Source: Candidatus Pelagibacter sp. (GTDB taxonomy: Bacteria; Pseudomonadota; Alphaproteobacteria; Pelagibacterales; Pelagibacteraceae). From it: 64,000 nucleotides of DNA. Positions within the stretch are counted from its first letter, which is position 1. Each line of letters starts with the position of its first letter. The stretch lies in assembly GCA_028404615.1 (NCBI GenBank), contig JAOOBT010000001.1:62001-126000 (forward strand). Direction: 5' to 3'. Shown here piece after piece: positions 31,832 to 35,380 of the stretch. Both the position numbers and the translations under genes were made by a program. The notes below the pieces were generated by a model that saw only the letters and a list, made by a program, of their open reading frames with translations, had not been told where the DNA came from and searched no databases.

Positions 31832-32074
31832 TTATTTTTTGTACTTAGCTGTCCATAATTTATCTAGTATAAAATACCAAACAGCATTAGCTAATGGTTC
31901 AACTATTGCATCTGTAAGAGCAATCATAAAAGAAACATCAGCAACTAACATTAAAACGGTTATGGCAATGGCAAAGTGCCCAATCGTGTAAATTATTGTT
32001 CTTAGTATAGAACCTTTATTGTTATCATAAATACTTTTAGAGGCTGATAATATTCCGTGAGTAAATTCTGTCAT
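31832..32074 (-). CDS. Small DUF2061-like membrane protein
   Basis: The 80-aa protein has two predicted helices (about 25-45 and 48-70). The pattern RTIIYTIGHFAIAITVLM...ALTDAIVEPLANAVWYFILDKLW fits DUF2061, with its R-x-x-x-Y start, conserved acidic-P-x-A-x-x-x-x-Y core and terminal W. Function is unknown. It abuts the upstream oxygenase-like gene (0 bp), so it is almost certainly cotranscribed with katG and the oxygenase. The ending LWTAKYKK is basic, placing the C-terminus probably in the cytoplasm. Confidence 0.7.
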   Translation of the reverse strand: MTEFTHGILSASKSIYDNNKGSILRTIIYTIGHFAIAITVLMLVADVSFMIALTDAIVEPLANAVWYFILDKLWTAKYKK

Positions 32075-32704
32075 TTAATTAAATGGATTTTCTAGAATAC
32101 ATGCTACTAAATGAATTCTATTTTGCTCCCCTCCGTTAAAAAAATTATGATATTTTGTATTATTTGTAATTGTAACTGATCCATCTGCGGGCATATGTTT
32201 GCTAACATCCTCAATTACCATTCTGCATCCTTTATTTGTAATAATTGGAATATGAAGTCTTGGCTCAGGGTCTCTATGCCAGCTCAAAGTTGATCTAGGT
32301 TCTTTTAAAAGTATTCTAACTCTTCCTAATTTAAAATTTTTTCGTAAGATGTTAAAAACCTCTTCATAGTAAGTACCTTTAAATTCTGCAAGTATTTCTG
32401 TATATTTTGACTCGTCAATATCTTTGTCTCTCTTTGCTTCTTTCCCGCTTTCATCTGGAATTGTCCAATAAGTACCTCTAACATTATGACCCTCTATGGA
32501 TGACTTGTCACCAGGTATTTGATTTAAAGGTATTGCTGCAAAGTTTTTAATCCCTAATGAATTAAATTTTTTCTTTTTTAAAATCTTTTCTAAATCAGAT
32601 CTTAATTTATCAATATCAAATTTAAGATTTGGAACAATATAGAAGTCGTTAGAAAGTTTTTTGTTTAAATTTTTGACATTTTCCATTGTCACCACACTTT
32701 TCAT
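32075..32704 (-). CDS. Aspartyl/asparaginyl beta-hydroxylase-like 2-oxoglutarate/Fe(II) oxygenase
   Basis: The 209-aa protein has a double-stranded beta-helix signature: SWHRDPEPRLHIPIITN with His143 and Asp145, distal His186 in TKYHNFFN, and Arg196 in NRIHLVAC as the likely 2-oxoglutarate ligand. This is the HxD...H...R arrangement of the aspartyl/asparaginyl beta-hydroxylase-like family. Substrate is unknown. It starts 1 bp after katG and abuts the DUF2061 gene. ATG 32686, preceded by GGTGA, is an alternative start six codons in. Being placed with a peroxidase and under an Irr-type operator suggests an iron- or oxidative-stress role (inference). Confidence 0.75.
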   Translation of the reverse strand: MKSVVTMENVKNLNKKLSNDFYIVPNLKFDIDKLRSDLEKILKKKKFNSLGIKNFAAIPLNQIPGDKSSIEGHNVRGTYWTIPDESGKEAKRDKDIDESKYTEILAEFKGTYYEEVFNILRKNFKLGRVRILLKEPRSTLSWHRDPEPRLHIPIITNKGCRMVIEDVSKHMPADGSVTITNNTKYHNFFNGGEQNRIHLVACILENPFN

Positions 32705-32705
32705 T

Positions 32706-34880
32706 TTAATTTAATTTTTTAATATTCGGTCTGTCCGCATTCATTATTTTAGTCCATACAGCTACAAAGTCTTTGATAAATTTATCCTTATTATCATCTT
32801 GAGCGTATACTTCAGCATATGATCTTAATATTGAATTAGAACCAAATACTAGATCAGCTCTAGATGCTGTATATTTTACCTTATTTGTTTTACGGTCAAT
32901 AATATCGTAAGAATTCTTACCAGTAGGTTTCCATATATATTTCATATCAACTAAATTTAAAAAGAAATCATTTGTCAAAGCACCTACTTTTTCTGTAAAC
33001 ACGCCTTTATCTTTTGCTGACTCATGGTTTGTTCCTAAAACTCTCATACCTCCAACTAAACACGTCATTTCCTGCGCGGTTAAACCCATCAAAGAAGCTC
33101 GCTCTAGTATAAGTTCTTCAGGCATTACAGAGTAATCCGATTTAACAAAATTTCTAAATCCATCGTGTAAAGGCTCCAACCATTTAAAATTTCTATTTTC
33201 TGTTTTTTCTTGAGTTGAGTCACCTCTCCCTGGAATAAATGGAACTTTGACTTTTGATCCACCTTTTTTGATTGCTTTTTCCAAACCAACATTTCCTGCA
33301 AGAATAATTGTGTCAGCAATAGATGCGCCTGTTTTTTTTGAAATATTTTCTAAAATTTTCAGCACTTTTGAAAGTCTCTTAGGTTCGTTTGCTTCCCAAT
33401 TTCTCATTGGCTCTAATCTTATTCTTGCTCCGTTTGCGCCACCTCTTTTATCTGTTCTTCTGTATGTTCTGGCGCTATCCCAGGCAGTAATTATCAAATC
33501 GTTATGATTTAATTTACTTGCTGCAATCATTTTTTTAACTTTTTCTACACTATATTTCTTTTTAGAGGGCTGAACATTACCCTGCCAAATAAGATCTTCT
33601 TTAGGTGCCCAAGGACCAATATAGTTATCTTTGCTTCCCATTGTCCTGTGAGTTAACTTAAACCAAGCTCGAGCGAATGAATCTTCAAAAAACTTTGGAT
33701 CTTTATAAAATCTCTCTGAAATCTTTCTGTATTCTGGATCCATTGCCATAGCCATATCAGCATCAGTGAACATCAGTCTGGCTTTCTTTGTTGGATCACC
33801 TAAATCAACTGGCTTCTTTTCCTCCTCTAAATTAATCGGTTCCCACTGCCAAGCACCTGCTGGGCTTTTTTTACTTTCCCATTCATAATTAAGTAAAAGA
33901 TCTAAGTATTGATGATCCCATTTATCAGGATTAGTTGTCCAAGCGCCTTCAAGCCCAGATGTTATTTGATTTACACCCGTACCGCCATTTTTTTGGATCC
34001 AGCCAAAGCCTTGCTCCTGAATATCAGCTCCTGCTGGCTCAGGACCTAAATTTGAAGGATCGCCATTTCCATGCGCTCTCCCAATCGAATGACCACCAAC
34101 AGTTAACGCAGCTGTTTCTACGTCGTTCATGCCCATTCTTCCGAAGGTTTCTCTAACATCCATAGCAGTTCTAACAGGATCTGGTTTTCCTTCTACACCT
34201 TCTGGATTAACATATACTAATTGAAAATGAGACGCTGCTAATGGAGCCTCTAAAGAAGAACGATCCTGTGGATCTCCATACCTATTTACAGCAAGTGGAA
34301 CTGTTTCTTTACCCCAATAAACATCTTTTTCTGGACCCCATATATCCTCTCTTCCAAAAGAGAAGCCAAAAGTTTTAAAACCGGCTTTCTCGTAAGCCAT
34401 TGTGCCAGCTAAAACCATTAAATCTGACCAACTTAACCTATTTCCATATTTTTTTTTAATCGGCCAGAGTAGACGTCTCGCTTTATCTAAGTTCGTATTA
34501 TCCGGCCATGAGTCTTGAGGAGAAAACCTGTGTGAACCGACGTTTGGTCTACCGTCAAATTCCCTGTAAGTTCCAACCTGATGCCAAGTCAGTCTAACCA
34601 TTAGCCCTGTATAACTTCCTAAATCTGCAGGCCACCACTCTTGACTATCTGTCATTAGTTTTAATAAATCTTTTTTTAAAGCTTTAAAGTTTAATTTTTT
34701 AACTTCTTTTTTATAATCAAAACCAGGAAGTGGATTAGTTTTTGTATCATGTTGATGTAAAATATCTAAATTAATACTATTTGGCCAAAGTCGAGAGGTG
34801 TTTGATTCACCTGCTTTAGTTACACCACCATGCATAACCGGACATTTTCCGTTACTATCTTTTTTATATTCTACACTCAT
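32706..34880 (-). CDS. katG: Catalase-peroxidase
   Basis: The 724-aa bifunctional haem enzyme removes hydrogen peroxide. Catalytic residues are visible: distal Arg96, Trp99 and His100 in [17 protein letters not shown], Tyr223 in VYVNPEG, Met249 in GRMGMND, and proximal His264 in [10 protein letters not shown]. Trp99-Tyr223-Met249 would form the Met-Tyr-Trp cofactor needed for catalase activity. The second, inactive peroxidase-like half is complete. A strong Shine-Dalgarno (AGGAG, minus strand, 34890-34886) precedes the start, and an inverted-repeat operator lies just upstream. Catalase is generally reported as scarce in SAR11-type bacteria, so this may be an accessory acquisition. Confidence 0.96.
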
Positions 34881-34890
34881 GTTTTTCTCC

Positions 34891-34910
34891 TAGTTTATAA
34901 TAATTCTAAA
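34891..34910 (-). promoter_or_regulatory. Fur-family (Irr/PerR-type) operator upstream of katG
   Basis: Plus-strand TTTATAATAATTCTAAA at 34894-34910 is an imperfect 7-3-7 inverted repeat. It differs by one base from the site ahead of irr (35361-35380) over 20 bp. It resembles both the Irr control element (TTTAGAANNNTTCTAAA) and the Bacillus PerR box (TTATAATNATTATAA). It sits immediately upstream of the katG Shine-Dalgarno, so binding would block transcription initiation or early elongation. The regulator is most likely the irr-type product encoded just upstream. Confidence 0.75.
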
Positions 34911-34932
34911 GTAAAAATCAAGCGACAAACTG

Positions 34933-35340
34933 TCAATTTTTTAAATTTATAAATACCTCTACGTTTTTGATTTTTTTTCCATTAGGTGCTTTTGGAATTT
35001 TTTGGATAACCACATCATTAGCATCTATGTCAATTAACTCACAAGTTTCACTATCATAAAAATGATGATGATTAGTAATGTTTGTATCAAAATAAGTTTT
35101 TTTTCCTCTTACTTCTACTTCACTTAAGTGTCCGGCTTTCTTAAAAGCATGCACTGTGTTATAAATTGTAGCTAACGCAAATTTAGACGTAGTTTTTTTA
35201 GCTAAAAGTTTATCTAAGCTTTCAACAGTAAAATGGAATGTTTTATCTCTTTCAAATAAAAATTTGGCAATTTCTACTCTCTGTTTAGTAGGCCTCAAAC
35301 CAGAAGATCTTAATTTCTTAAAAATATCTATTTTTTTCAC
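34933..35340 (-). CDS. irr: Fur-family regulator, Irr-like (iron response regulator)
   Basis: The 135-aa protein has a winged helix (LRPTKQRVEIAKFLF; ALATIYNTVHAFKKAGHL) and the Irr-type block KTYFDTNITNHHHFYDSETCELIDI with the triple histidine, followed by VVIQKIPKAPNGKKI. This matches rhizobial Irr more closely than Fur or Zur. The N-terminal haem regulatory GCPWH motif found in some Irr proteins is absent. The start is GTG at 35340. It is followed by katG 52 bp downstream, with near-identical operators before both genes, and is divergent from fabA. Irr normally senses haem/iron status; a PerR-like peroxide role here is possible. Confidence 0.85.
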   Translation of the reverse strand: MKKIDIFKKLRSSGLRPTKQRVEIAKFLFERDKTFHFTVESLDKLLAKKTTSKFALATIYNTVHAFKKAGHLSEVEVRGKKTYFDTNITNHHHFYDSETCELIDIDANDVVIQKIPKAPNGKKIKNVEVFINLKN

Positions 35341-35360
35341 GTTTTTTAAAGTTATTTTAC

Positions 35361-35380
35361 TAGTTTATAATCATTCTAAA
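35361..35380 (-). promoter_or_regulatory. Fur-family (Irr/PerR-type) operator between irr and fabA
   Basis: Plus-strand TTTATAATCATTCTAAA at 35364-35380 is the same 7-3-7 inverted repeat found before katG, with one base changed in the centre. It lies 20 bp upstream of the irr GTG and about 50 bp upstream of divergent fabA. Autoregulation of irr is the simplest reading. An effect on the fabA-fabB-fabI promoter is possible because both starts share this 91-bp gap. Confidence 0.75.

Follow-up and report, generated by a model that had tools for sequence, protein, structure and literature searches.

Bacteria of the SAR11 group (order Pelagibacterales), the most common in the ocean, are textbook streamlined cells and are often said, in the Black Queen view, to rely on their neighbors for the removal of hydrogen peroxide (H2O2). 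What is a peroxidase operon with its own Fur-superfamily regulator doing in such a cell, and why does it also encode an oxygenase and a small membrane protein? These questions are raised by a 64-kb stretch of Candidatus Pelagibacter sp. DNA (contig JAOOBT010000001.1, positions 62,001 to 126,000; hereafter the window), in which genes for an Irr-type regulator (irr), the catalase-peroxidase KatG, an Fe(II)/2-oxoglutarate oxygenase (here called OXY) and a DUF2061 protein follow one another. The original prediction, made from the sequence alone, treated the last three as one iron- or peroxide-responsive unit. The trio is real and conserved, and it is probably the KatG version of an exchangeable, Irr-family-controlled peroxidase slot of the Pelagibacterales; two aspects merit follow-up, the exchange of cassettes and a reading of OXY that detaches it from KatG. 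The features of the operon are:

34933-35340, minus strand: irr, Fur-superfamily regulator of the Irr type, 135 amino acids, GTG start
32706-34880, minus strand: katG, catalase-peroxidase, 724 amino acids
32075-32704, minus strand: OXY (type A), Fe(II)/2-oxoglutarate oxygenase (PF05118) with H143, D145 and H186 plus R196
31832-32074, minus strand: DUF2061, predicted membrane protein of 80 amino acids, a divergent family member
35364-35380, minus strand: Irr-box-like operator before irr, TTTAGAATGATTATAAA, 0 mismatches
34894-34910, minus strand: Irr-box-like operator before katG, TTTAGAATTATTATAAA, perfect match

Open reading frames in the window bear out the predicted order on one strand, with 1 bp between katG and OXY and 0 bp between OXY and DUF2061, and the predicted family assignments are upheld by Pfam and NCBIfam scores. 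KatG scores 212.4 bits for the Pfam peroxidase family (above cut-off) and 1020.4 bits for the equivalog model TIGR00198 (cut-off 770.25), and its best solved-structure match is the catalase-peroxidase 3wnu (E = 0; residues 9-718 aligned). The nearest sampled genome (G001) shares 47% of words with the window, and a contig of uncultured Pelagibacteraceae AG-447-P19 (L031) is nearly identical across the slot, its genes being 97-100% identical.

The peroxidase slot behind irr

Our sample comprised 147 genomes of the SAR11 order, 105 of them at least 90% complete. The three genes katG, OXY and DUF2061 are consecutive in 44 of the 147, and irr, katG, OXY and DUF2061 occur together in 62 of the 80 loci closest to the window OXY (the best 80 of at least 306 relatives). 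The trio thus does not occur only in the window, and its linkage is a feature of other genomes. Counting the two candidate peroxidases across the sample shows them to be mutually exclusive there: katG is present in 69 genomes (64 exceed the curated cut-off) and rubrerythrin in 67, no genome holds both, and 11 hold neither (other peroxidases were not searched for). Among the 105 well-covered genomes, 65 carry katG and 37 rubrerythrin, giving 102 with exactly one of the two, mostly in a fixed slot behind irr. Immediately before rubrerythrin the regulator gene is found in 64 of 67 genomes, and immediately before katG in 55 of 69 (irr matches weaker than about E 1e-10, which are Fur paralogs, were not used for adjacency).

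In the nine katG-less genomes inspected first (G006, G012, G016, G021, G025, G027 and G104, with G003 and G007 of group f2), three genes follow irr, encoding rubrerythrin, an Fe-S protein resembling GlpC and a member of DUF3501. These families were assigned on the G006 copies; elsewhere rubrerythrin was identified by the search of the genome sample, and the GlpC-like and DUF3501 genes were recognized by size, some by sequence start as well. The G006 rubrerythrin, a protein of 138 amino acids, scores 107.1 bits for PF02915 (cut-off 22.8) and 139.7 of the required 200 bits for RuberyRbr, over model positions 3-145 of 194. In group f1 the SH3/ThiF genes that flank the KatG operon come next after the rubrerythrin cassette, and in f2 the far flank is different. 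The two cassettes are alike in their slot, in following irr, in their similar boxes and in providing an H2O2-removing enzyme, but rubrerythrin is a non-haem iron enzyme, and type-A OXY and DUF2061 are absent from the genomes that carry it (one of these, G111, has an OXY fragment that was left unclassed). Since the rubrerythrin cassette fills the slot in katG-less genomes, and the two do not occur together in the sample, we read the trio as one of the forms taken by an exchangeable peroxidase slot under Irr-family control. The cassette would be either KatG-[OXY]-[DUF2061] or rubrerythrin-GlpC-like-DUF3501, one of the two in nearly every well-covered genome, and in the first of these KatG destroys H2O2.

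A tree of FabB and FabI, whose genes adjoin the slot, requires at least 10 changes between katG and rubrerythrin across 103 loci (103 of 104 rows, one identical row being left out; a short search), and 6 changes of the katG label are forced by well-supported branches alone, so that the cassettes appear to have been swapped repeatedly. Such repeated swaps of a haem for a non-haem iron enzyme amount to a natural experiment on iron economy versus peroxide load in the ocean. KatG itself (L031-L110 and others) falls into three identity classes, with mean identities to class I of 93, 71 and 54%; between classes I and II the identity is 51-58%. The irr slot is shared by KatGs of class I, of class II and, in a few cases (L071, L084 and L091), of class III, and because different classes occupy one slot, KatG too has been replaced in place.

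Several individual loci show further arrangements. Two genomes (G029 and G134; L155 and L319) have katG and irr without type-A OXY or DUF2061, and KatG alone can therefore fill the slot. In a SAR11 metagenome-assembled genome (L088:5366-7521) OXY stands immediately after fabA with no irr or katG between; this slot has lost the regulator and the peroxidase and retained OXY. G005 (L139), which is grouped with f2, has f1-like katG and OXY genes and a weak box, and its katG/OXY contig is possibly misbinned.

Irr and rubrerythrin of Ca. P. ubique are already known from earlier work (available text of PMC2864753 and PMC5069961). A 2025 paper reports katG as common to most offshore Pelagibacteraceae genera, its main text being silent on rubrerythrin and Irr (PMC12636525). 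A 2024 study of the South Pacific Gyre reports, in its accessible text, KatG in all clades except Prochlorococcus, and rubrerythrin in just 4 of 28 SAR11 members and also in Prochlorococcus (PMC11366302). In the open-access literature available (supplements excluded) we came across no description of the trio, of Irr boxes at the genes concerned, or of katG and rubrerythrin excluding one another.

The operators and the Irr-type regulator

The two near-identical operators noted in the original prediction stand before irr and katG as the 17-position sequence TTTAGAATnATTATAAA, and they are the only perfect matches to the pattern TTTAGAAYNRTTATAAA in the window. Allowing up to 2 mismatches gives 5 matches against 2.6 expected; a lone pattern this loose is not rare by chance, and we judge the operator real because it is conserved. 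Counting a box as present when at least 15 of its 17 positions match (one position free), and using distinct upstream regions (6 irr and 7 katG regions were left out as duplicates or contig-end cuts), we found it before irr in 86 of 90 regions (21 of 1800 shuffles) and before katG in 92 of 101 (16 of 2020 shuffles). Rubrerythrin has the box in 31 of 32 genomes (16 of 1600 shuffles), and in two f2 genomes it is a perfect palindrome, TTTAGAATnATTCTAAA. This comparative evidence, from irr, katG and rubrerythrin alike, argues for an ICE-like operator at the target genes, the boxes resembling what we take to be the ICE consensus, a TTTAGAA-type palindrome.

The katG box is retained with irr and lost with it. 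Where irr is present the katG box is found in 92 of 94 regions, and where irr is absent among the matches listed in 0 of 7; in these seven genomes (G002, G008, G010, G033, G055, G091 and G098) it scores 12-13/17, the level of shuffles. The association also holds in trans: in two f2 genomes (G028 and G090; a third such genome, G078, was left out) katG lies on a contig separate from irr, and its box still scores 16/17. The box is likewise retained where a KatG of another class has replaced katG in place. The evidence therefore supports the proposal that the katG operon is apparently controlled by an Irr-family regulator, which also has an operator of its own. Exact boxes were found in 8 of 10 searched genomes, in 7 of the 8 exclusively at irr and katG, and in the eighth (G004) once at katG and once elsewhere; because they are nearly confined to these two genes, the visible regulon is very small. 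A larger regulon built from one-mismatch boxes was rejected, as these occur at about the same frequency as in a reversed-pattern control. The box starts 21-42 bp ahead of the irr start codon and mostly about 30 bp (range 12-110) ahead of that of katG, close enough that a bound protein could block transcription. On comparative grounds we regard the box as a predicted binding site of the Irr-type protein. The reconstruction of Irr regulons by Rodionov et al. in 2006 reportedly may already predict SAR11 sites, and we therefore claim no novelty for the box itself.

The irr product scores 64.4 bits for Pfam FUR, above cut-off. Its best NCBIfam match is IrrA (146.7 bits, cut-off 150), followed by Irr (133, cut-off 170), scores that far exceed its Fur and PerR scores; four curated PerR models return 64.4/200, 59.4/250, 35/180 and 30/200 bits, all far below the cut-offs. 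An f2 relative (L259) clears the IrrA cut-off with 154.7 bits. Across an alignment of 13 rows that includes one Fur paralog, H36, H91 and H93 are invariant and D85, D104 and H92 nearly so, and H91-H93 provide the HxH/HHH histidines of haem binding. A structure alignment to 2fe3 spans H36, D85, H91 and H93; these residues, with D104, correspond to what we take, from PerR numbering, to be the regulatory ligands in PerR. The metal-site positions thus appear conserved in the same manner as in PerR and Irr alike. The protein has a single cysteine and therefore no Cys4 zinc site.

We infer that the Irr product would repress both irr and the cassette behind it through the ICE-like boxes just ahead of each, and that it would release them when haem or iron, or peroxide, alters its state. 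In actinobacterial FurA-katG and firmicute PerR-kat units a Fur-superfamily gene likewise stands directly before katG and is autoregulated; the SAR11 slot differs in its Irr branch, in a separate operator before katG and in a cassette exchangeable with rubrerythrin. With the Irr/ICE system of Rhizobiales and Rhodobacter sphaeroides it shares, as far as the available text goes, an Irr-type regulator and a palindromic TTTAGAA-type box, presumably ICE, and neither SAR11 Irr nor R. sphaeroides Irr has the haem regulatory motif, in the form in which we take that motif (PMC3413700). The same text describes direct control of ccpA and mbfA by R. sphaeroides Irr, no binding to the katE catalase promoter, and effects on many genes (PMC3413700), whereas in SAR11 exact boxes are essentially confined to irr and a single peroxidase cassette beside it.

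OXY and DUF2061

OXY scores 35.7 bits for Asp_Arg_Hydrox (PF05118, cut-off 22.6). Its H143, D145, H186 and R196, invariant in 15 aligned rows, align with H115, D117, H160 and R170 of Cpz10, the protein most similar to it in fold. Cpz10 is a non-haem beta-hydroxylase of caprazamycin biosynthesis (7v4f/7v4m; available text of PMC9814697); OXY is about 30% identical to it and has a differing context. OXY occurs in 132 of the 147 SAR11-order genomes, in 54 of them as type A (above a gap in bit scores, at 311 or more). Beside the katG slot it has a second location, at hemB/rpiB-glyA, there without katG, and copies from the two slots are interleaved on the OXY tree (138 of 177 rows, after removal of identical rows and of those shorter than 170 residues). 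This second home and the interleaved copies show that OXY is not a dedicated KatG partner.

Relatives outside SAR11 point to a possible reaction. In 11 of 15 outgroup loci a GntG-type pyridoxal-phosphate (PLP) aldolase adjoins OXY, the labelled neighbors being this aldolase or MttB-type genes and never katG (G815, a weak OXY match, was left out of the comparison). Because of the adjoining aldolase we read OXY as a probable free-amino-acid beta-hydroxylase, which offers a testable reaction class for an oxygenase this widespread in the order. The katG-slot gene would then be a second, co-regulated copy of this hydroxylase, the other being that by hemB/rpiB-glyA, and as its iron site would be open to H2O2, co-production with a peroxidase would sustain its activity under stress. 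A more specific scheme, which we regard as rather doubtful, would pair OXY with GlyA (serine hydroxymethyltransferase, SHMT) as aldolase, converting a lysine-like amino acid, perhaps trimethyllysine, to glycine and an aldehyde as in the carnitine pathway, within two interchangeable Irr-controlled peroxide cassettes of which the KatG version brings an OXY copy; GntG-type aldolases would take the role of GlyA in the outgroup bacteria. SAR11 bacteria are glycine auxotrophs, and the known trimethyllysine hydroxylase belongs to a different oxygenase family than OXY. The carnitine-pathway pair of a hydroxylase and either SHMT or threonine aldolase follows the same logic of beta-hydroxylation and then aldol cleavage to glycine, and these are the kinds of aldolase near OXY (available text of PMC11016064).

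Other neighborhoods of OXY were also inspected. Among f2 loci, one OXY relative (L151:2168-9157) lies among genes for a polyamine-type ABC transporter, an aldehyde dehydrogenase and Ldh_2, and another (L153:5536-9773) among glutamine-synthetase-like and M19 dipeptidase genes, surroundings like those of an amine catabolism region. OXY relatives in L192, L241, L242 and L243 are close to an MttB-family gene, hinting at quaternary amines; the first three also have a GbdR-like regulator and, named by eye, carbon-nitrogen-hydrolase-like and MmgE-like genes. The hemB/OXY-B intergenic region contains a conserved element (ATGCGACAAATrTAATAT..., L141:5388-5463 and equivalents) that may be a promoter, GCGACA-17-TATATT; an Irr box there was rejected (best 12-14/17 in 8 loci, near shuffle level). 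A GntG aldolase in SAR11 was rejected, with no strong match in 15 genomes and six weak ones at 22-27% identity. In the class sample OXY occurs in 7 of 289 genomes, two of them SAR11; a distribution beyond the alphaproteobacteria was rejected (0 of 397 other genomes in the phylum sample at E <= 1e-20), as was a plasmid home, for which a single Streptomyces record at 29% identity was found.

DUF2061 reaches 26 bits for PF09834 (cut-off 23.1), a marginal score consistent with a divergent member. It tracks KatG, occurring in 56 of 69 katG genomes and in 0 of the 78 others, even where it is not within 1 kb of katG (7 of the 56): in G002, G008, G010 and G014 it lies on the katG contig about 48 kb or more away, and in G005, G045 and G118 a different contig carries it. 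One other genus of the phylum has a typical DUF2061 gene directly upstream of katG; a general adjacency of the two was rejected (3 of 30 examined loci, from 91 genomes with matches, in that single genus). Published work, in the text available, describes a Caulobacter DUF2061 gene whose expression goes up 13-fold when iron is limiting and 6-fold when fur is mutated, lists a Shewanella gene with a Fur-binding motif, and finds P. aeruginosa PA3237 raised by UV plus H2O2. A family that is iron- or peroxide-regulated elsewhere is now tied to KatG, and the protein may assist the peroxide/iron response of KatG-bearing cells as a small membrane accessory.

The trio as one functional unit, in the form originally predicted, is not supported: KatG is swapped for divergent KatGs or for the rubrerythrin cassette, OXY has its second home, and DUF2061 follows KatG even at a distance. 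A related idea, in which OXY is a dedicated modification or maturation enzyme that hydroxylates KatG or a target of peroxide and the three genes form a single machine, could draw on the finding that type-A OXY is confined to katG genomes (54 of 54) and adjoins katG in 51. We consider it very improbable, however, as type-A OXY is missing from 15 of the 69 katG genomes, the gene also lies by hemB/rpiB-glyA without katG (its sole site in three of the 54), KatG has been exchanged for a class 51-58% identical while OXY stayed, and katG is never beside OXY in the 15 outgroup loci. It is also unlikely, though less so, that OXY and DUF2061 are simply fortuitous passengers in the katG transcript. The absence of type-A OXY from those 15 katG genomes and of DUF2061 from 13 of the 69, and the other home of OXY, would fit such a view, but the trio is consecutive in 44 genomes and DUF2061 accompanies katG from afar and adjoins it in another genus.

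Signal, counter-evidence and flanking genes

Whether the slot answers to peroxide or to iron divides two further readings, neither of which we favor. The regulator may act as a PerR, sensing peroxide by metal-catalyzed histidine oxidation, with the Irr label reflecting mere ancestry. A small regulon of peroxide scavengers fits such a role, as does retention of the residues at the PerR ligand positions (in the numbering we assume), but the protein lies far under all PerR cut-offs (best 64 of 200), its one cysteine leaves it without the Cys4 zinc site, and its HHH motif fits haem binding by Irr equally well. About equally tentative is the view that the slot is an iron-sparing unit, in which Irr turns off iron-costly proteins at low iron and peroxide is secondary. 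Haem KatG, Fe(II) OXY, di-iron rubrerythrin and the Fe-S GlpC-like protein are all from iron-using families, and Irr of other alphaproteobacteria represses under iron depletion (available text of PMC3413700); on the other side stand the induction of the Caulobacter DUF2061 gene under iron limitation and the expression data from Ca. P. ubique.

Classical Irr would repress an iron-using gene at low iron. In Ca. P. ubique, which has no katG, rubrerythrin mRNA increased 1.57-fold when iron was chelated and the level of Irr protein stayed the same (available text of PMC2864753), and under sulfur limitation rubrerythrin was at 0.17 of control as mRNA and at 2.24 as protein (available text of PMC5069961). 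These data are equivocal, neither proving nor excluding iron control, yet the rise under chelation runs counter to classical Irr and is one of several points that weigh against an Irr-controlled, exchangeable slot. The window Irr falls slightly below both curated Irr cut-offs. The box before irr itself is lacking from 4 of 90 regions, and none of the 7 f2 loci inspected has it (11-14/17), so that autoregulation is not universal, and L071 (13/17) and L139 (14/17) have weak katG boxes despite irr. Of the 14 katG genomes without irr directly upstream, 3 (f2) have it elsewhere and 11 have none among the matches listed, namely the 7 irr-less genomes, 3 contig-end cuts (G047, G097 and G139) and G110. 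Five katG-bearing genomes carry katG fragments only, two rubrerythrin matches are fragments only, and to these come the 11 genomes with neither gene. All genomes are from one order with common ancestry, and Fisher tests of co-occurrence overstate their independence. Lastly, AhpC and glutathione peroxidase are reported, in the accessible text, from all gyre clades, SAR11 included (PMC11366302), and the slot is therefore not the sole H2O2 defense.

Outside the operon, three further features were noted:

35385-35412, minus strand: possible promoter of irr, TTGATT-16-TATATT, abutting the irr operator on its upstream side
35432-37931, plus strand: fabA-fabB-fabI, conserved flank, divergent from irr
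30651-31831, plus strand: ThiF-family and SH3-domain genes, conserved flank, convergent with the operon

The promoter call is weak, because promoter-like matches are no more numerous in the region than in shuffles (16 against 15.8). fabA was identified by profile match, and fabB and fabI were named by sequence and position. Relatives of the locus share both flanks, the divergent fabA-fabB-fabI and the convergent SH3/ThiF genes.

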